Assembly: GCF_000281065.1 (NCBI RefSeq)
Contig: NZ_AKKK01000011.1
Span: forward strand, 62,001 to 126,000
Length of the DNA: 64,000 nt
Reading direction: 5' to 3'
Origin: Arthrobacter sp. M2012083
GTDB taxonomy: Bacteria; Actinomycetota; Actinomycetes; Actinomycetales; Micrococcaceae
How positions within the stretch are numbered: position 1 is the stretch's first letter; every line of letters begins with the position of its first letter. The translations under genes and the position numbers were made by a program. This document shows, one piece after another, positions 38,055 through 47,066 of this stretch. The notes under the pieces are model-generated. The model had not been told where the DNA came from, did no database searches, and saw nothing but the letters and a program-made list of their open reading frames with translations.

Positions 38055-38534
38055 ATGACAACCCTTGACGAGTCCACCCGCGAGACCGACGATCTCCTTC
38101 TGGAGCGCCAACTGTGCTTCGCCCTCACCGTGGCCTCGCGCAGTGTTGTGGGTGTTTACAAGCCTGTGCTTGAGCGGCTCGGGCTTACCCATCCCCAATA
38201 CCTGGTGATGCTTGCCCTCTGGGAACGGAGCCCCCGGACACTCAAGGACATCAGCGACAGCCTCCTGCACGAACCAGCCACTCTCTCCCCGCTACTCAGG
38301 CGACTGGAGGAAGCCGAGTTGATTACCCGCGAGCGAGTGCCCGGCAATGAACGCGCATTGGCGGTCAAGTTGACGGACAAAGGTGCCGCCCTTCGAGAGC
38401 AGGCCACCGCCGTTCCGGGGGAGATTCGCGAGCGCCTGCAGCTAAGCCGCGAAGAGGTAGCCGAACTCCACCAGGCCATGACCGGACTGATCGCGGCCAC
38501 GCAACAGCAGAAGCCCATCAGCGCAACTCCCTAG
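38055..38534 (+). CDS. OhrR-type MarR-family peroxide sensor
   Basis: A 159-residue MarR-family regulator of the OhrR kind. The N-terminal segment LLLERQLCFALTVASRSVVG places Cys21 at the peroxide-reactive position of OhrR, followed by the winged helix (HPQYLVMLALWERSPRTLKD; LSPLLRRLEEAELITRERVP; NERALAVKLTDKG). In OhrR, oxidation of this Cys by organic hydroperoxides releases DNA. No ohr gene is adjacent; the divergent neighbour is an unknown 87-residue protein, so either ohr is elsewhere or the target differs. Confidence 0.82.
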   Translation: MTTLDESTRETDDLLLERQLCFALTVASRSVVGVYKPVLERLGLTHPQYLVMLALWERSPRTLKDISDSLLHEPATLSPLLRRLEEAELITRERVPGNERALAVKLTDKGAALREQATAVPGEIRERLQLSREEVAELHQAMTGLIAATQQQKPISATP

Positions 38535-38625: not shown

Positions 38626-39147
38626 ATGCGCATGCGATTTGTTCGGCCCTTGCTGGCAGTATTGGCCATCGCCGGCCTCGCCGCATGCTCAGGCACCCCC
38701 ACCCCGGGTTCCACCAACAGCCCGACGGAAGCGCCGTCGTCGTCGGCCACTTCAAGCAGCAGCCCCAGCAAAACCGCAACTCCCAGCGCGTCAACAGCCA
38801 CCGGCGCAGGCAATGCCGAACTCTCCATCACGCTCCTTGAAACTCCGGAGTCCGCTCCCCAGTCGTTCACACTCGTCTGCACGAATGGTGTGCCCGCCGC
38901 CGAAAGCAGCCACCCGTCGGCAGCCGAGGCCTGCACTTCACTCAAGAACGGCCCCTCCGTCCTGAGCCCCGCCCCGATGCGAACGGACCAAGCCTGCACC
39001 ATGCAGTACGGGGGCCCGGCAACAGCCAAGGTGACCGGTTCAGTGGACGGCAAGGAAGTCAGCGCTTCCTTCAACCGAACGGATGGCTGCCAAATCGCCC
39101 TGTGGGACGCCGCGAAGAGCGTCCTCGGATCAGATGGCGGCCTCTAG
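38626..39147 (+). CDS. Lipoprotein with subtilisin-inhibitor-like (SSI) domain
   Basis: A 173-residue precursor: signal peptide with lipobox LAAC (lipidated Cys21), a Ser/Thr/Pro linker (about 22-60), then an SSI-like domain with all four cysteines at the expected spacings: Cys85 (FTLVC), Cys103 (AAEAC), Cys124 (DQACTMQYGG) and Cys155 (RTDGCQIALW). By alignment to Streptomyces SSI, whose reactive site is C-P-M|V-Y, the equivalent here is C-T-M126|Q-Y, so P1 would be Met, suited to subtilisin-type proteases. The start ATG 38626 follows AGGAG. It lies upstream of a large subtilase gene. Inhibitory activity is inferred. Confidence 0.8.
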   Translation: MRMRFVRPLLAVLAIAGLAACSGTPTPGSTNSPTEAPSSSATSSSSPSKTATPSASTATGAGNAELSITLLETPESAPQSFTLVCTNGVPAAESSHPSAAEACTSLKNGPSVLSPAPMRTDQACTMQYGGPATAKVTGSVDGKEVSASFNRTDGCQIALWDAAKSVLGSDGGL

Positions 39148-40072
39148 GCTGCGGCACCTCCCCCAAGAGCGATGGCTCGGGCTGGAGGCAGCCCACCATG
39201 CACGCGTCGCGCGTTATGCAGATCCCTATCTGGCGCGTCGTTCAGCCGGTAAGAAGCACCCCGTAGAGGACTTCCTCTTCACCTACTACACGCAGAAGCC
39301 GGGCCAGTTGCAGCGTTGGCATCCCGGCGACGGCGTAGTCCTCAGCGGCGAGCGCGCCTTGGAGCGCGTCTCCTGGAAGTTCTACAGAGCGGCCGACGAC
39401 GCCGAACTCGCCTCTGTCGGGCTTCCAGCGGGAACGCCGGCAGTCACCTTTGAGCGGGCCGGCTTCCTTGCCGACCGCACCGAAGCTGTCCGCTTCGCCG
39501 GAATCATCCTCGCGGGCACGGCCAAGCGACCGGCACAGTTTGGGTGCTTTGGCCTGCACGAGTGGGCCATGGTGTATCGGCAGGAAAAGTTTGAGCTGCG
39601 GCATGAGTACCTCAAGCTGAGGCTTGGCGGCGACGGTACGGACACCGTGGTGGAAGAGAACCGCATCCGCTGCTCGCACTTTGATGCCTTCCGCTTCTAC
39701 ACGCCTGACGCCACCTCGCTGAATGAACTTACGCCTACCCGCGAGAACCAGCGCACCATGGAGCAGCCGGGTTGCTTGCACGCCAACATGGACCTTTATA
39801 AGTGGGCCTACAAGCTAACGCCTGCCCTGCCGAGCGAGCTGGTGATGGACTGCTTCGAGTTGTCATGGCGGATCCGCACGATGGACATGCAGGCGTCTCC
39901 CTACGATCTTCAAGAATGGGGCTACCCGCCCATCAGGATTGAGACACCGCAGGGCAAGGCCGAGTACGTTGAATACCAGCGGGCTTTCGCGACCGAATCC
40001 CAGGAGTTGCGGGCCCGCGTGCTCCAGGCAGTAGGGCCGCTCTTGGATGAGCTGAGCGGTTTGGCTGCCTGA
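39134..40072 (+). CDS. Conserved actinobacterial protein often labelled 3-methyladenine DNA glycosylase
   Basis: A 312-residue protein of a widely conserved actinobacterial family with the landmarks KHPVEDFLFTYYTQKPGQLQ (about 37-56), FGCFGLHEWAMVYRQ (about 138-152), CSHFDAFRFYTPDA, EQPGCLHANMDLYKWAYKL and QASPYDLQEWGYPPIRIETP. From memory these are named 3-methyladenine DNA glycosylase in databases, but no HhH-GPD or AAG motif is visible, so I treat the function as unknown. ATG 39134 overlaps the end of the SSI lipoprotein gene by 14 bp and the next SSI-like gene follows after 29 bp, so the three are probably one transcript. Confidence 0.8.
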   Translation: MAASRLRHLPQERWLGLEAAHHARVARYADPYLARRSAGKKHPVEDFLFTYYTQKPGQLQRWHPGDGVVLSGERALERVSWKFYRAADDAELASVGLPAGTPAVTFERAGFLADRTEAVRFAGIILAGTAKRPAQFGCFGLHEWAMVYRQEKFELRHEYLKLRLGGDGTDTVVEENRIRCSHFDAFRFYTPDATSLNELTPTRENQRTMEQPGCLHANMDLYKWAYKLTPALPSELVMDCFELSWRIRTMDMQASPYDLQEWGYPPIRIETPQGKAEYVEYQRAFATESQELRARVLQAVGPLLDELSGLAA

Positions 40073-40101
40073 GCACCCGCCGCCACCAGCGAAAGGTAAC
40101 C

Positions 40102-40491
40102 ATGGTTTCCGAAAAGAACAGCGAGTACGACGTCGACCTCACAGTAAGACTGACGGAGGCGCCTGGCGCTGACAGCCGGGAGTTCCACCTCCGGTCCGCT
40201 GCCGGGATCATGTCTGCAGACCCGGACTCGCTGGACTCAAATTTGCCCGACGCGCCTGCGGCGCTTGCCGCCGTCGAGCAATTCGGGGAAGAAATCTTCT
40301 TTCCCGAGCCCAGGCCGGACCGGATCTGCACTCAGCAATACGGTGGCCCGCAAGTTGCTGTAGTCACCGGATGGTTCCGTGGACGCAAGGTCCATAGCCA
40401 ATTCAGCCGCACCGACGGATGCGAGATCGCACGTTGGAAAACCTTGGCGGCGTTGTTGGGCAATACCGGAGGCTCCACGGGCGCTGCCTAG
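40102..40491 (+). CDS. SSI-like protein without signal peptide and with one disulfide lost
   Basis: A 129-residue soluble protein whose C-terminal part aligns with the SSI domain of the lipoprotein encoded 1 kb upstream: RICTQQYGGPQVAVVTGWFR against QACTMQYGGPATAKVTGSVD, and SQFSRTDGCEIARW against ASFNRTDGCQIALW. Only the second cysteine pair remains (Cys76, Cys107); the first pair of SSI is replaced, and there is no export signal. The residue at the P1 position is Gln78 rather than Met. It is therefore a cytoplasmic paralogue, unlikely to be a classical secreted inhibitor. ATG 40102 follows AAAGGT. Family assignment by pattern comparison only. Confidence 0.72.
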   Translation: MVSEKNSEYDVDLTVRLTEAPGADSREFHLRSAAGIMSADPDSLDSNLPDAPAALAAVEQFGEEIFFPEPRPDRICTQQYGGPQVAVVTGWFRGRKVHSQFSRTDGCEIARWKTLAALLGNTGGSTGAA

Positions 40492-40510
40492 GACACCGAT
40501 TCCGTCCCAT

Positions 40511-40568
40511 GACACGCAAATGGGCTGGGGACGCCCGGATTCAGGTGTCCTCAGCCCATTTGCGTGTC
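40511..40568. terminator. Very long hairpin between convergent genes
   Basis: Arms of 22 bases (40511-40532, starting GACACGCAAATGGGCTG, and 40547-40568) pair with one G.T over a 14-nt loop. It sits between the stop codons of the SSI-like gene and the subtilase and could stop both transcripts, but it lacks T-runs, so a dispersed palindromic repeat is an alternative. Confidence 0.6.
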
Positions 40569-40578
40569 CTGCAGGAAT

Positions 40579-43500
40579 TTAGCCGGCGTTGTTGCTCTGT
40601 GTCGGCTCGTCAGCGCGGATCTTGCCACCGTGCTTCTTGTCCTTCTTGTCCTTCTTCGGGTCTTCCTCGTCCGGAACCACGACGGTTCCGCCCGGGTTGA
40701 CCAGGACGGTGACGAAGCTCGGCTCGCTGGTACCTGCGAAGGTCAGGCGACCAATGTAGGAGCCGGGTTCCAGGTTCTTCCAGTTCAGCGAGATCTGGCC
40801 CGTCTTGCCATTGGCGAGGCGGATTGGATTCGGCGTCACGGTCGCGTTGCCTTGGTTGGCGCCCAGGACGGCGGCATCAACAGTGGCCTTTGTGGGCTGG
40901 TTGTTGGGGCTCGCATAGAGGTTGGCGAAAACGTAGTAGTCGCCCGGCGCCGGGTTGGGAACGGACAAGGTTTCGCTTGCCGAGGCCGTCGCGGCCGGCA
41001 ACTGCTGACCGGACGGAGTGAGCACCAGCATGTCGAAGTCCGCGGCCTCGTTGGAAGAGATCACCGAGAACTTGGCAAGCGCACTGCCCTCACCAACTGT
41101 CACCTTCTTCACGTAGTTGGAAGCATTGGTCTCACCCGCGAACGGGCCGGGAACCAGCTCGACTGCCGAGGAATCTGCTTTGGAAAGACCATCAACGGTG
41201 ACGCCTACCGGCAGGTTGGTGCCTGAGGTGATGTTGATGGTGGCGGAGCCGTTAGGTCCCGTTCCCGTGAAAGCCAGGGCCTTGTCCGCGATGACGGACT
41301 GCGGCCGGACGGCGATCGGCGAGGTGACGGTCTTGTTGGCACCCTGCCAGTTCAGCGAACCCATGGCAAACTTGCCCAGGTCGGCGTTCTTGTTTTCGAA
41401 CTGGACCTTGAACGTCTTCTTCTCGCCGGGGGCACCGAATGTGAGCACGGACGGCGTGACCTTGACGTTGACGCCCGGCACATTGACCGATGCCCGGTAC
41501 GTGCCCGGGGTCAATGCGGTGAGGGTACGGGTGACCTCGATCTTGCCCGCGAGGTTGCCGAGCGCGAAAGAGGGAACGTTCATGTCGCGGGGTGCCGTGG
41601 TGCCCAGCCCCTCCATGCCCAGGTCCATGCCTGTGCCCTGGATGAACTTCAGGTAGTCCTCGGTTGTGGCGTCGTATACCAGGCCCGGTGAGAGGACCTT
41701 GGCCGGATCTACCTGCCCGGCGCCCGTGGCGAAGACATCCTTGTTGATGGCGCCGTTGGCCAGCTTGACCGGACCAGCGGTGGTCATCATGGCGGACTTC
41801 ACCGTGGCCGGGGACCACTGCGGGTTCTTGGACAGGATCAGGGCGCCGAACCCGGCAACGTGTGGAGACGCCATGGACGTTCCTGAGAGGAAGCCGAAGT
41901 TGTCTCCACCAGTTCCGATCGGTGAAACGCCGGCGAGGATAGCGACGCCGGGAGCGGACACGTCAGGCTTCAACAGGTCCGAGTCGGTAGCAAGAAGCGG
42001 ACCGCGCGAGGAGAATCCTGCGATCTGCGGCTGTGCTTCAGCGGGCAGGCCGGTGGTGTCGCGATTCAGGAGGGACACGGTGATGGCCGGGTTGGCCGTG
42101 ACCTTGTCCTTGATGGTCTGAGTGGCGGGCGGGTTCACGTGGACGGTGGGGATGACGTGCTTGTCGGTGTCCAGGGACGAATCGGTCAGGTTCACCAGGA
42201 TCATGCCGACGCCACCGCCGCGAAGGACCTCAGCGCTCTTGGCGGTACGGTCGACAACACCACGGTCGCAAACAACGACCTTGCCGGCTACCTTGGCCGG
42301 GTCCAGGGAGCCGGGAGCACAGAGCGCAGCGTTGCCTTCACCGCTTGCAGCGTTGGTGGAAAGCACGACGCCGGCCCCGCTCACCTCGCGGTTCATGATG
42401 CTCGCTCCGCGGAACTTGCTGCCATCGGAGAACTCAACAGTGCCCTGAAGCTCCTGCGAGAAGGACGTCGCGGCAACCGTGGTCAGCCAGGGTGCTCCGT
42501 GGTTGACGGTGCTGGCGGTCGGTCCGGAGTTGCCTGCCGAGGTTGCCACGAAGATGCCTGCGGAAGCTGCCGACAGGAAGGCCAGCGAGACGGGATCGGT
42601 GGTGGACGTGGTTGAACCGGAGATGGAGTAGTTCAGCACATCCACACCGTCCAGAATGGCCTGCTCGATCGCGTCCACAGACGCGGAGCCGTAGCAACCA
42701 CCCGTGGCTGGGTCTGTGTCCTCCCAGCAGACTTTGTAGACGGCGAGCTTGGCGGCGGGTGCGATGCCGCTGGTGATTCCGAAGCTGCGGCCGTCCACTA
42801 CGGCGTCAACGTTGGCGTTGCCCGCTGCTGTGCTGGCTGTATGGGTGCCGTGGCTGTCCACGTCGACGGGAGAAATGACTTCTTCCGGAGCGCGGTTTTC
42901 CGGCGGAACAGTCTCCAGGAAGGCGTCAGCGAAGTAGTGGGTGCTGAGAACCTTGGAGTTGCAGGCACTGCCGTCGTAGTCGGCACCCGTGTCGGTACCT
43001 GGCTGGCATTCACCAACGAAAGTATCGCCGTCGGCCTTCAGCATGGCGATCTTGCCGTCAGCAGTGCGGTACGGAACGCCTACCTGGGCGTTGCCCACCA
43101 ACGGGCCAACAGGCTCACCGGAGAAGAACGGGTTGGACGGGGTGTAGCCGGTGTCGATCACGCCAACAACGGTGCCCTTGCCGGCGTTGTCCAGTCCGCC
43201 GTACTGGGTAGCCCAGGTTCCGTTGGGGCCGCTGAGCTTGAGGAAGTCGGTGGTGGAGTAGTCCGGGGCGTACTGCGTGTCCGGTGCCACCATGAGGACC
43301 TTGGGGTCCTTGGCAAGGTTGATCGCCTGGTCAGCTGTCAGGTTGGCACTGAAGCCGTTGACGGCGGTGGTGAAGTCACGCTCGATGGTGACGTTTTCCT
43401 GCTGGGCAATCTCCTGCTGCCGGCCCTGCAGGTGCTGCTGGTATTCCTTCACCTCGGCGCTGTCGGCGTCGAGCTTCTTGCCTTCTTCCGGCTTGGTGGG

Positions 43501-43767
43501 AGCAAGCCCGGCCGTGCCGCCGTCGTACGTCGCTGCAGGCTTTTCGGCCAGGACCACCATGTATCGGCCGTCCTTGTAGGCGCTGGGGTCAAGGTTCTTC
43601 TTGGCCACGCCTGCAACGTTCCCTGGCGTCTCCGGGGCGGGAGCGGCCTGGGCCGGCATCGCCATCGACGAGAGCAGCAACGGCAGGCCAACGGCAAGCA
43701 CCGCAGCCTTTCGAAGTCCCCCGCTTCTGACGAAGCTCTTTCCTTGTGATTTCACGAGTGGTTGCAC
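40579..43767 (-). CDS. Large secreted subtilisin-family (S8) serine protease
   Basis: A 1062-residue precursor: Sec signal peptide (AVLAVGLPLLLSSMAMPAQA, cleavage near residue 41), an I9 propeptide domain (about 65-168; YMVVLAEKPAA...), and the S8 domain with Asp205 in VVGVIDTGYTP, His306 in VDSHGTHTASTAAG and Ser631 in FLSGTSMASPHVAG. A PA domain is inserted between His and Ser (about 450-560). Downstream come Fn3-like/beta-sandwich domains of the plant-type subtilase architecture, and the C-terminus is a Lys-rich tail (DEEDPKKDKKDKKHGGKIRA) with no LPXTG. The gene starts at GTG 43767, though GTG 43755 is also possible. Two SSI-like inhibitor genes lie just beyond its 3' end. Confidence 0.93.
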   Translation of the reverse strand: MQPLVKSQGKSFVRSGGLRKAAVLAVGLPLLLSSMAMPAQAAPAPETPGNVAGVAKKNLDPSAYKDGRYMVVLAEKPAATYDGGTAGLAPTKPEEGKKLDADSAEVKEYQQHLQGRQQEIAQQENVTIERDFTTAVNGFSANLTADQAINLAKDPKVLMVAPDTQYAPDYSTTDFLKLSGPNGTWATQYGGLDNAGKGTVVGVIDTGYTPSNPFFSGEPVGPLVGNAQVGVPYRTADGKIAMLKADGDTFVGECQPGTDTGADYDGSACNSKVLSTHYFADAFLETVPPENRAPEEVISPVDVDSHGTHTASTAAGNANVDAVVDGRSFGITSGIAPAAKLAVYKVCWEDTDPATGGCYGSASVDAIEQAILDGVDVLNYSISGSTTSTTDPVSLAFLSAASAGIFVATSAGNSGPTASTVNHGAPWLTTVAATSFSQELQGTVEFSDGSKFRGASIMNREVSGAGVVLSTNAASGEGNAALCAPGSLDPAKVAGKVVVCDRGVVDRTAKSAEVLRGGGVGMILVNLTDSSLDTDKHVIPTVHVNPPATQTIKDKVTANPAITVSLLNRDTTGLPAEAQPQIAGFSSRGPLLATDSDLLKPDVSAPGVAILAGVSPIGTGGDNFGFLSGTSMASPHVAGFGALILSKNPQWSPATVKSAMMTTAGPVKLANGAINKDVFATGAGQVDPAKVLSPGLVYDATTEDYLKFIQGTGMDLGMEGLGTTAPRDMNVPSFALGNLAGKIEVTRTLTALTPGTYRASVNVPGVNVKVTPSVLTFGAPGEKKTFKVQFENKNADLGKFAMGSLNWQGANKTVTSPIAVRPQSVIADKALAFTGTGPNGSATINITSGTNLPVGVTVDGLSKADSSAVELVPGPFAGETNASNYVKKVTVGEGSALAKFSVISSNEAADFDMLVLTPSGQQLPAATASASETLSVPNPAPGDYYVFANLYASPNNQPTKATVDAAVLGANQGNATVTPNPIRLANGKTGQISLNWKNLEPGSYIGRLTFAGTSEPSFVTVLVNPGGTVVVPDEEDPKKDKKDKKHGGKIRADEPTQSNNAG

Positions 43768-44029: not shown

Positions 44030-46972
44030 CTAGCCCTTGGGCGTCACGTGCAGTCGGTCAAAGGATACCTGCAACCCGTCCTTATCCAGGACCACCACGT
44101 CATCCCGGCCATTCTTCACGTCCGAGGGGAGAATGAACTCAACGGTGGCATCCGTGCCGGGAAAGGTCCACCCAACGCGGTACCCCGTCTTGTTCAAATA
44201 CACGTAGTACCAGTTCCCATAGTCCAGGCCCTTGAGCTCTACCCTCTGGCCTGTGCTGTACTTATCCGCCGTGCCAAGGTCAGTGGGCGGTGTGCCCAAC
44301 TCCTGGACGGTCAGCACAGGCTCAAAGTCCGGCCGTTCGGGCTGGACCGTGAGCACCAGCGGGTCAGCTTCGGCAGCAGCGGCAACGTCCCGGTCACCAT
44401 TGCTTGCACTTGCCTCAAACGAAAGCGCGCCCAAGCTGCCTGCAGCAACATCCCCGGCAGTCAGGACGTGCTGCCGCGTGGAAGTCACAGTGGCTCCGAC
44501 GGCAAAAGTGGCTTCGGAAATACCGGCCTCCGGCGCCTCCAACCCGGTCACTGCCACGTTGCCGGCGTTTCCCACGGTGTAGGTGTAGATGACGGGATCT
44601 CCGGCACTGGCGAAGCGGTCGCCGTCGGCGTCTTCCCACACTGCCGAGACGGTCGCCTCAAGCTTCGGTTCACGGACCTTAAGATCTACTTCGCCGCCGT
44701 CCACGGCCATGTTGTTGGTGCTTTGACCCGCCGCGCTGACTTCCCACGTGGTCTTCGGATTGAAGAATCCCTGCTCAGCTTCTTCAGCGGTGACAGTGTG
44801 GCGCGGAGTGGAGCACTGGTAGCTCTGACCGACCGGCAGGACGCTGTAGCGGCAATTGCCTGGCCCTTCCGGAAGGAACGGACTGAAGTTGCCAGCCGTC
44901 GGGACTACCTTTTCCACCAGCGGGCTCGTGTTCTTGACGGTGAAGGTGTACGGGACCAGGTCGCCTGCCGCGTACGGCTGGGTGGCGAGGTCACGCCCGA
45001 CGTCGGCGCGCGCCCCGCTGATGTCGGCCGTCAGGAGACCGTCGCGCAAAGCGACCGCGGCGCCAATGAACGGCACAGTCACGGTGAGCGACGGCGTCGA
45101 ACTTGCCGTGATGCTGAAGCTCGCCTCCGGCACGAAATAGCCGCGCTGGACGTCGGCCGCGGTGATCACATGCTTGGCGGTGGTGCAGTTGTAACTGGCG
45201 CCGGCGGCCAGATTGTTGAACCTGCAATTGGGGGCCGACGGTGGCAGGAAGCCTGAGTCGAACGTCCCGGAAACAGGCACCACATTGGCAGTGACGTTGG
45301 CAGTGCTCTTGACGTTCAACGAATAGCTGAGGACCTCACCCGCTTGGTAGGGGTTTGCAACGACGTCCCGGGCTGGAGCCGTTCCCGTGATGGTGAGCCC
45401 CACCCGCGGAGGGGCCGGCACAGTGGCGGTGAAGGCGGACTGCGAAACCTTGCCAGCCGTCGTCGTGAATGCTGCGTTAAGGTTCTGCGGACCGCTGGCG
45501 TTTGCTGGCGCGGTCAGGGCAACGTTGACCGTGGCCGAGGCGCCGGGGGCGACGTCGGGAACAGGTACCGTGGTGGCCGACCAGCCAGTGGGCGTGTAAA
45601 TAGTGGCATTCGCCCCGGACAGGACGCCGGCTTCCTGATTGGTGACGGTCACGGGCACCTGCTGTGTAGCGCCCGGGGCAGTGGTGACAGCCGGGACCGA
45701 GAGCGGGGCGCAGACGTAGTTCAGCCAGGCGTCATCGAACTTTGCGAACGGCATATTGTCTGTGTAATTGCCCTCATAGAGCACGCCAAATGTGTCGGCT
45801 TCCAGGCGGGTCACCGTGGAGTACGCGGAGAAGCCGGAACGGATGGTGCGGACGCCTGGCCACGTGGCGCCGTCGTCGCAGGAGACGCGGGCCGAGACAT
45901 TTTCGCGGCCGGTCTTGGAGTTGGCGTTGGTGAAAATGAGCTTCTTGGCGTCAGCTGAGCCCTGCTCCGCATCCGGGAACATGCGTGCGATGGCACCGTT
46001 GTTGGCGGGGTCCGGAAGCTCTGTGTCTTGAGTGACCGGACCGTAAGTAGCTCCGCCGTCCGTTGAGATGGCCACTTTTCGGTAGCCCTGGTTGGCGTTG
46101 TCCCGCGAATTGAGGAGTACCCGGCCGTCGGAAAGTTCTACCGTCTTGTTCTCGTCCATCCGGTCCCCGACGTTGGCGCCCTTGTGCCAAGTGGCGCCGT
46201 GGTCGTCGGAATAGACGCTGTAGGCCTGGATCTTGTTGGTGCCATCCGCCTGCCGGACGTCCCCGGCATACTGCTGGATCAGGCGGCCCTTGTACGGGCC
46301 GTATTTGAGCTGGATTCCCTCGCCGGAGGACGCGAAGTTGGAACGGACATCGCCGGCCATGGGGCTTGCCTTACTGGTTCCGGGCTTGGTGACATTGGTG
46401 ATGAGGCGTGGTTGGCTCCATGTAGCGCCGGCATCCGACGACTCAATGACGGCCGAGGAAATCACTGTCCGGTCGGCGTCGTTGTTGCCGAACTGGCTAC
46501 CGCCGAAGCCTTGGTCCTTGGAGTACACAAAGAAGGCAAAAACTTTGCCGGCCTCGGCATCGTAAATGTAGGAGGGGTCGCTGTACCCGTACTTGGGTCC
46601 GCTGGCATCGCCCACGTGGCCGGCGGCAATGACCGAGACGGGCCCCCACGTCCGGCCGCCGTCGGTGCTGCGACGCTGCACGATCGAGTTGGGGTTGGGC
46701 GCGTCCGCCGCTGAATCCGGACGTCCGTCCCACGCAGCGAGCACCACGTTGTTGCCCGGATAGGTCAGAGCTGGGATGCGGTAGAAGAAGTTCGCGGCAG
46801 TGCGGTCGGCGCCGATGTTGGCCTCAGTAAAAGTGCCTGGCGCAATTGCCGGGTTGTTGGGTGGAAAGGGTGCGGCGGTTGCCGGAAGCCCGGGACCTGC
46901 CAGGAGGCCCAGGCTCAATGCGCCGGCGGCTGCGACGCGGGCGAGCAATGGCACAGGGGGTGTGGATTTCAA
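44030..46972 (-). CDS. Secreted exo-alpha-sialidase (GH33) with CARDB-like repeats
   Basis: A 980-residue precursor starting at TTG 46972, eight bases after AAAGGA; a longer in-frame start is at 47017. Signal peptide VAAAGALSLGLLAGPGLPAT. The GH33 propeller (about 30-420) has the arginine motif NFFYRIPALTYPGNN and Asp boxes RSTDGGRTWG, SSDAGATWS, YSDDHGATWH, STDGGATYG and CDDGATWPG, plus the Tyr/Glu region SFGVLYEGNY-like TFGVLYEGNYTDN. Then a NEW3-type domain (about 425-520) and three CARDB/DUF11-like repeats (about 525-860), each with a GDxxPY- or GExLSY-type entry, and a final beta domain. It cleaves terminal sialic acids outside the cell. No sialic acid uptake or catabolic genes lie nearby in this window. 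Confidence 0.92.
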   Translation of the reverse strand: MKSTPPVPLLARVAAAGALSLGLLAGPGLPATAAPFPPNNPAIAPGTFTEANIGADRTAANFFYRIPALTYPGNNVVLAAWDGRPDSAADAPNPNSIVQRRSTDGGRTWGPVSVIAAGHVGDASGPKYGYSDPSYIYDAEAGKVFAFFVYSKDQGFGGSQFGNNDADRTVISSAVIESSDAGATWSQPRLITNVTKPGTSKASPMAGDVRSNFASSGEGIQLKYGPYKGRLIQQYAGDVRQADGTNKIQAYSVYSDDHGATWHKGANVGDRMDENKTVELSDGRVLLNSRDNANQGYRKVAISTDGGATYGPVTQDTELPDPANNGAIARMFPDAEQGSADAKKLIFTNANSKTGRENVSARVSCDDGATWPGVRTIRSGFSAYSTVTRLEADTFGVLYEGNYTDNMPFAKFDDAWLNYVCAPLSVPAVTTAPGATQQVPVTVTNQEAGVLSGANATIYTPTGWSATTVPVPDVAPGASATVNVALTAPANASGPQNLNAAFTTTAGKVSQSAFTATVPAPPRVGLTITGTAPARDVVANPYQAGEVLSYSLNVKSTANVTANVVPVSGTFDSGFLPPSAPNCRFNNLAAGASYNCTTAKHVITAADVQRGYFVPEASFSITASSTPSLTVTVPFIGAAVALRDGLLTADISGARADVGRDLATQPYAAGDLVPYTFTVKNTSPLVEKVVPTAGNFSPFLPEGPGNCRYSVLPVGQSYQCSTPRHTVTAEEAEQGFFNPKTTWEVSAAGQSTNNMAVDGGEVDLKVREPKLEATVSAVWEDADGDRFASAGDPVIYTYTVGNAGNVAVTGLEAPEAGISEATFAVGATVTSTRQHVLTAGDVAAGSLGALSFEASASNGDRDVAAAAEADPLVLTVQPERPDFEPVLTVQELGTPPTDLGTADKYSTGQRVELKGLDYGNWYYVYLNKTGYRVGWTFPGTDATVEFILPSDVKNGRDDVVVLDKDGLQVSFDRLHVTPKG

Positions 46973-47066
46973 ATCCAGTGTCCTTTCGAATCGGCTCCGA
47001 GTCGGCACCTCCCCCATATTTGGCTCCGGGATTGGTAGAGGTGCGATCTCGAGTGGGCGTTCATGT

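Follow-up and report, generated by a model that had tools for sequence, protein, structure and literature searches.

The locus

The window, a stretch of 64,000 nucleotides (nt) from Arthrobacter sp. M2012083 (part of a 4.63 Mb genome in 67 contigs), carries two genes related to the Streptomyces subtilisin inhibitor (SSI) beside the gene of a secreted subtilase of the S8 family (S8). SSI1 (38626..39147, + strand) encodes an SSI-family lipoprotein of 173 residues, recognized by a Pfam SSI match above the cut-off, by alignment to solved SSI and by a lipobox. MID (39134..40072, +) encodes a conserved protein in which no leader was seen; it falls in no Pfam or NCBIfam family and is characterized by invariant columns. 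SSI2 (40102..40491, +) encodes a protein of 129 residues whose predicted structure has the SSI fold, which has no hydrophobic N-terminus and which carries an invariant loop. S8 (40579..43767, −) is convergent to SSI2 and encodes a subtilase of 1062 residues, identified by Pfam and, by eye, from its motifs and signal sequence. Our main subject is SSI2, a leaderless SSI-type protein with an invariant reactive loop that all but one of 101 genomes from a large soil genus retain, in an apparent operon with a lipoprotein copy and beside a subtilase.

The three forward genes are tightly packed. MID likely starts at 39134 and so overlaps the SSI1 stop by 14 nt, an overlap seen in 57 of 89 loci of the genus, the window included. 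If the SSI2 start is set at the candidate closest to the MID stop, the two genes share 4 nt in 63 of 90 loci; in the window they are separated by a gap of 29 nt. The 87 bases between SSI2 and S8 hold a palindrome (40511..40568, no strand, read directly from the sequence), which is likely a two-way terminator common to both genes. According to the initial annotation of this DNA, the two SSI-like genes flank a conserved gene in one apparent transcript. The gene order and the overlaps agree with this, but MID need not belong to the unit (see below).

Loci, genomes and genera of the comparison set are labelled L, G and g respectively. Per-locus counts use 90 of the 101 genomes of the genus, the other 11 having been scanned for gene order and for the loop only. 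In a few genomes (e.g. L091, L325, L329, L330) MID, SSI1, SSI2 or S8 is broken up between frames, perhaps by assembly errors.

SSI1 and the S8 subtilase

SSI1 has the lipobox LAAC with Cys21 (38686-38688) and four further cysteines at positions 85, 103, 124 and 155. Judged by sequence, this fits the cysteine pattern of the SSI family, four Cys with P1 in a loop after the third. The reactive-site loop CTMQYGGP (38995-39018) has Met126 (39001-39003) at P1; in a weak phmmer match (E 0.0097) this residue pairs with the Met that occupies P1 in solved SSI. The Pfam SSI score of 31.1 bits exceeds the cut-off of 23.9, and SSI1 is the only above-cut-off Pfam SSI match in its genome. The earlier description of SSI1 as a lipoprotein with a full SSI pattern is borne out by these features.

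SSI1 is readable in 89 of the 90 loci (in L094 the anchor fell on a wrong motif). In each of the four columns the Cys is kept in 88 of the 89 genus rows, and P1 is Gln in 54, Met in 19 and Glu in 15 of them. A strict lipobox filter is passed by 59 of the 89 rows, and 27 of the remaining 30 show a lipobox by eye; the rows that lack a lipobox call are L018, which is cut at the locus end, and L091 and L094, which are unreadable. The median ratio of non-synonymous to synonymous substitutions (dN/dS) is 0.20 (218 pairs, drawn, as for SSI2 below, from L002-L031 only at dS 0.1-1.0).

S8 consists of an I9 propeptide, an S8 domain with a PA insert (Pfam S8 2.3e-46) and an fn3_6 domain. The catalytic triad is Asp205, His306 and Ser631, in the motifs GVIDTG, HGTHTA and GTSMASPH, and the N-terminus is a signal sequence as judged by eye. 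The annotated secreted S8 protease of 1062 residues is confirmed on all these counts.

SSI2 is a conserved leaderless protein

SSI2 is homologous to the SSI1 genes. It contains only two cysteines, Cys76 and Cys107, and lacks the first Cys pair of SSI. Its loop, CTQQYGGPQ, starts at 40327 and places Gln78 (40333-40335) at P1. The missing leader, the missing first Cys pair and the Gln at P1 had all been noted for this second SSI-like protein before, and all three hold. No hydrophobic run of nine residues occurs near the SSI2 start in any of the 90 genus loci.

By sequence profile SSI2 falls short of the Pfam SSI cut-off, scoring 13.1 bits (E 0.096) where 23.9 are required. Of the joint alignment's 46 members, 30 reach Pfam SSI at E up to 1. 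An AlphaFold2 model (predicted local distance difference test score, pLDDT, 82.6; predicted template modelling score 0.73) was compared with known structures, a check that the initial annotation had itself proposed. The first 14 Foldseek rows are all SSI family, with a best E of 8.7e-4, the only one below 0.001. VIA-align returned eight SSI entries with Z-scores of 7.4-8.0 (root-mean-square deviation 4.3-5.4 over 97-105 residues), and the next row has Z 3.6. That SSI2 adopts the SSI fold is thus well supported by the model. SSI2 was also checked for BsuPI/IPI (PF12690): SSI was the sole family listed by the Pfam scan, and the structure searches brought up SSI chains.

SSI2 is present at E < 1e-29 in 100 of the 101 genomes. 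The loop CTQQYGGPQ, the TDGCE motif and the partner Cys are invariant in all 90 aligned loci, and CTQQYGGP recurs in the ten further SSI2 genes of the genus, giving 100 of 100. This reactive loop is the longest invariant stretch of the protein; 11 of the 90 rows carry one extra Cys elsewhere. The median dN/dS is 0.17 (202 pairs). The description of SSI2 as degenerate does not survive these results: the invariant loop and the low dN/dS rule out a decaying copy and mark SSI2 as a maintained leaderless protein, constrained most strongly in its reactive loop. Nor does Gln at P1 signify lost function, since it is the commonest state in SSI1, and the lack of the first Cys pair is shared by exported SSI2-type lipoproteins of another genus (L308-L310).

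SSI and S8 genes are linked

In 98 of the 101 genus genomes the cluster is followed by a convergent S8. The count is made up of the wide loci L091-L150 (59 of 60), the loci L002-L031 with S8 within 1.5 kb (23 of 30) or about 1.8 to 4.9 kb past SSI2 (five more, L317-L321), and the 11 remaining genomes (L322-L332). Among the exceptions, the contigs of L334 and L335 end too early to tell.

The family was surveyed with 100 genomes from 32 genera. SSI genes occur in 54 of them, and 36 have a close S8 (E<=1e-100); 28 genomes have both, 26 SSI alone, 8 S8 alone and 38 neither (Fisher p 4e-4, with genomes treated as unrelated). In 27 of the 28 genomes with both, from nine genera, a distance of 88 to 3864 bases separates the nearest SSI-S8 pair. 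Only G134 departs from this, its S8 being a distant relative and located on another contig. In G195 an in-frame stop interrupts the S8 gene. We conclude that the SSI-S8 linkage is real, and the linkage anticipated in the initial annotation extends across the genus and into several other genera.

The arrangement of the linked genes varies. S8 may be convergent after SSI2, or divergent from MID where SSI follows MID, and some loci have it on both sides; in g24 a convergent SSI-S8 pair lies far from MID. In a quick S8 tree (37 S8 genes from 69 picked loci, both motifs within one segment of 300-560 residues; support by the Shimodaira-Hasegawa-like approximate likelihood ratio test, SH-aLRT, only), the convergent slot within the genus holds two S8 lineages, and five of 14 divergent S8 genes are sister to one of these lineages. 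Arthrobacter globiformis and relatives (L225, L228, L230, L263) have a second S8, divergent from SSI1, and thus an S8 gene at either end of the cluster.

SSI2-type proteins in other genera

Three loci of g24 (L308-L310) carry an SSI2-type domain without the first Cys pair but with a lipobox, convergent to S8 and away from MID. Their loops are CTEQYGGP, CLDVFSGP and CSDVYSGP respectively. Since these lipoproteins lack the same pair, its loss is independent of the absence of a leader, which weakens the idea that a cytoplasmic location caused the loss of the first disulfide. G155 (g28) has a tandem pair of an SSI1-type lipoprotein gene and a leaderless SSI2-type gene without MID (L311:2225-3222). 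In g19 a leaderless copy follows MID (L042, L047, L052, L168, L187), and all four genomes that were read retain it.

In a tree, the leaderless copies of g1, g19 and g28 group together with the g24 lipoproteins (20 rows, 90/69). When the leaderless g18 copy is added the group still lies on one side of a branch (67/92), an arrangement that is not firm. A single clade of all leaderless copies is neither rejected nor demonstrated by the approximately unbiased test (p-AU 0.112). The leaderless copies were neighbours in the first tree too, where L071 has a very long branch. The g24 lipoprotein L308 nests among the SSI2 rows of the genus, so that the leader may have been either lost or regained. Alignment A4 omits L258 (X in the SSI row) and the partial upstream SSI rows of L225, L226, L252 and L263.

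MID and neighbouring genes

MID has three invariant Cys/His motifs, C138-H142, C180-H182 and C214-H216, which look like a metal site in the sequence. Its comparison with Pfam and NCBIfam gave no family match. The MID model has a pLDDT of 94.5, and Foldseek returned no match for it at E<=0.001. Its best VIA Z is 5.2, among rows that are mostly helical bundles, and this neither shows nor excludes a known fold. Among named loci, that of Paenarthrobacter nicotinovorans ranks highest in a scan with MID (91% identical). A homologue in Tsukamurella is labelled '3-methyladenine DNA glycosylase', a label that no profile supports.

MID is found in 146 of 149 family genomes and 95 of 197 class genomes. 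No SSI gene lies within the 1.5 kb MID flanks of the 28 best-match loci at order and class level (L191-L218, some incomplete). Being widespread with or without SSI, and with SSI genes also occurring without it, MID is ruled out as an obligatory member of the unit; it seems rather to be a widely used host gene beside which SSI genes settled.

The conserved block begins with a gene for a MarR-family regulator (38055..38534, +; Pfam MarR 7.3e-13), which is present in 53 of the 60 wide genus loci and also adjoins MID in several other genera. On the far side S8 is adjoined by a gene (44030-47017, −) for a sialidase-like protein with BNR repeats and DUF7507/DUF11-type repeats. Relatives of the sialidase-like protein adjoin MID in genomes without SSI, e.g. 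L238 and L240.

Discussion

The linkage with S8 and its lipoprotein state make SSI1 a probable inhibitor of the neighbouring subtilase at the cell surface. SSI1 would be lipid-anchored on the outer face of the membrane and would block S8 there by the standard mechanism, with the loop bond in the active site. SSI2, encoded in that same apparent operon, would remain in the cytoplasm with the same loop and might block S8 that is folding or maturing before export, or that re-enters damaged cells. The occurrence of SSI2-type lipoproteins beside S8 in g24 ties the SSI2 subtype to the protease. We put forward, tentatively and at somewhat less than even chances, that the locus is a self-protection unit around the secreted subtilase, with one guard in each of two compartments. 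The part given to SSI2 as the internal guard is more doubtful still. That the SSI family as such has a cytoplasmic branch, forming the inner half of a two-compartment guard, possibly redox-gated, against the cell's own subtilase, we consider rather unlikely.

A number of observations weigh against this proposal. The P1 type of SSI1 shows no correspondence with the S8 lineage. Leaders are present (judged by eye) in each of the four S8 proteins that the genome encodes, and hence there is no obvious S8 target for SSI2 inside the cell; one of them, L301, combines its signal sequence with a hydrophobic C-terminal segment and may resemble a mycosin. The disulfide that tethers the SSI2 loop may fail to form in the reducing cytoplasm. 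G027 (68% complete, L332), the one genome of the 101 that lacks SSI2, has MarR, SSI1 (loop CTDIYGGP) and MID, with S8 coming directly after MID. In G082 there is no S8 behind SSI2, only an upstream one (L106, L333), and in six genomes of the genus the distance from SSI2 to S8 is about 1.8 to 4.9 kb or otherwise greater than usual. The tandem pair of G155 has no close S8, and four g19 genomes have S8 next to a leaderless copy from which the loop and both Cys have been lost. At the level of the family, 26 of the 54 SSI genomes have no S8 at E<=1e-100, and S8 occurs without SSI in g4 and g14 (8 genomes). When one genome per genus is taken (L151-L181), an S8 near MID is seen in 5 of the 16 loci that bear SSI and in 2 of the 15 that do not, a weak difference.

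The 26 SSI genomes without this S8 and the count of one genome per genus, together with an SSI1 P1 residue that varies regardless of the S8 lineage and five trypsin-family matches in the genome, would suit SSI genes that guard against foreign proteases or other proteases of the cell, their linkage to S8 being a matter of neighbourhood inheritance. The linkage has, however, outlived several rearrangements, including the one that left the g24 SSI-S8 pair away from MID, and we regard this explanation as improbable. It is equally improbable, in our estimate, that SSI2 is no longer an inhibitor and has become a partner or regulator of the co-transcribed MID, with the old loop as a binding site. The 4-base start-stop overlap of MID and SSI2 in most genomes (the window has its gap of 29 nt), the absence of a leader from both proteins and a genome without a leaderless S8 are what such a partnership would lead one to expect, but many genomes have MID without SSI, and both the tandem SSI1-SSI2 pair of G155 (L311) and the g24 SSI2-type lipoproteins beside S8 are away from MID.

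The disulfide bears on a further explanation. When a small disulfide-bridged subtilisin-inhibitor peptide is reduced, inhibition is lost and the peptide is cleaved, as described in the part of PMC9623506 drawn on here, a precedent that also counts against an active SSI2 in the cytoplasm. If SSI2 behaves in the same way, it would be latent until oxidized, e.g. after lysis. SSI2 could then be a latent external inhibitor, reduced inside the cell, released by lysis or another route, oxidized, and blocking S8 near lysing cells. Consistent with this, every one of the 90 genus loci keeps the two loop-flanking Cys and lacks the other pair, g19 lost both Cys along with the loop, and the g24 SSI2-type domains are exported lipoproteins by their lipobox. 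On the other hand, export or release of SSI2 is only supposed, the Cys may be retained for other causes, and their loss together with the loop is confined to one genus; we think it an unlikely explanation too. The locus poses the testable question of how a bacterium guards its interior against its own secreted protease. A second such question is whether an SSI loop can work without its disulfide or be switched by it.

The nearest known kind is the Streptomyces subtilisin inhibitor family (PF00720, MEROPS I16; 3ssi/2sic, SSTI 6i0i, sermetstatin 4hwx). SSI1 and SSI2 have in common with it the fold, the reactive loop after a Cys and the loop-tethering Cys pair. SSI1 further resembles SSI in its second Cys pair and in Met at P1, but differs in being a lipoprotein and in its YGGP loop, which is one residue longer than the YDP of SSI. 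SSI2 departs further, with no leader, no first Cys pair and an invariant Gln at P1. The SSI proteins we know of are extracellular. Among the titles and abstract openings of the SSI papers listed, a scope that leaves most subscription journals outside, none concerns a leaderless SSI. The idea that plant PA-fn3 subtilases accept Gln at P1 finds no support in the part of PMC11371470 consulted and is not used here.

Two systems are close in role. The SSI-type inhibitor Sti of Streptomyces coelicolor restrains the organism's own secreted proteases in an extracellular cascade, according to the portion of the source cited (PMC4255298). Sti is extracellular and acts in a developmental cascade, whereas here the inhibitors adjoin a single subtilase in non-mycelial bacteria and one of them is leaderless. 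Intracellular peptidase inhibitors are termed rare in the sections of PMC3901451 used here, which describe IPI/BsuPI of Bacillus (PF12690) as a small subtilisin inhibitor thought to be intracellular, with an intracellular subtilisin as its reported target; by the same account its gene is not near a subtilisin gene, and doubt is raised that IPI is purely intracellular. The Ig-like fold of IPI is unrelated to that of SSI2 and all S8 proteins have leaders here, but in role IPI is the closest known counterpart of SSI2.

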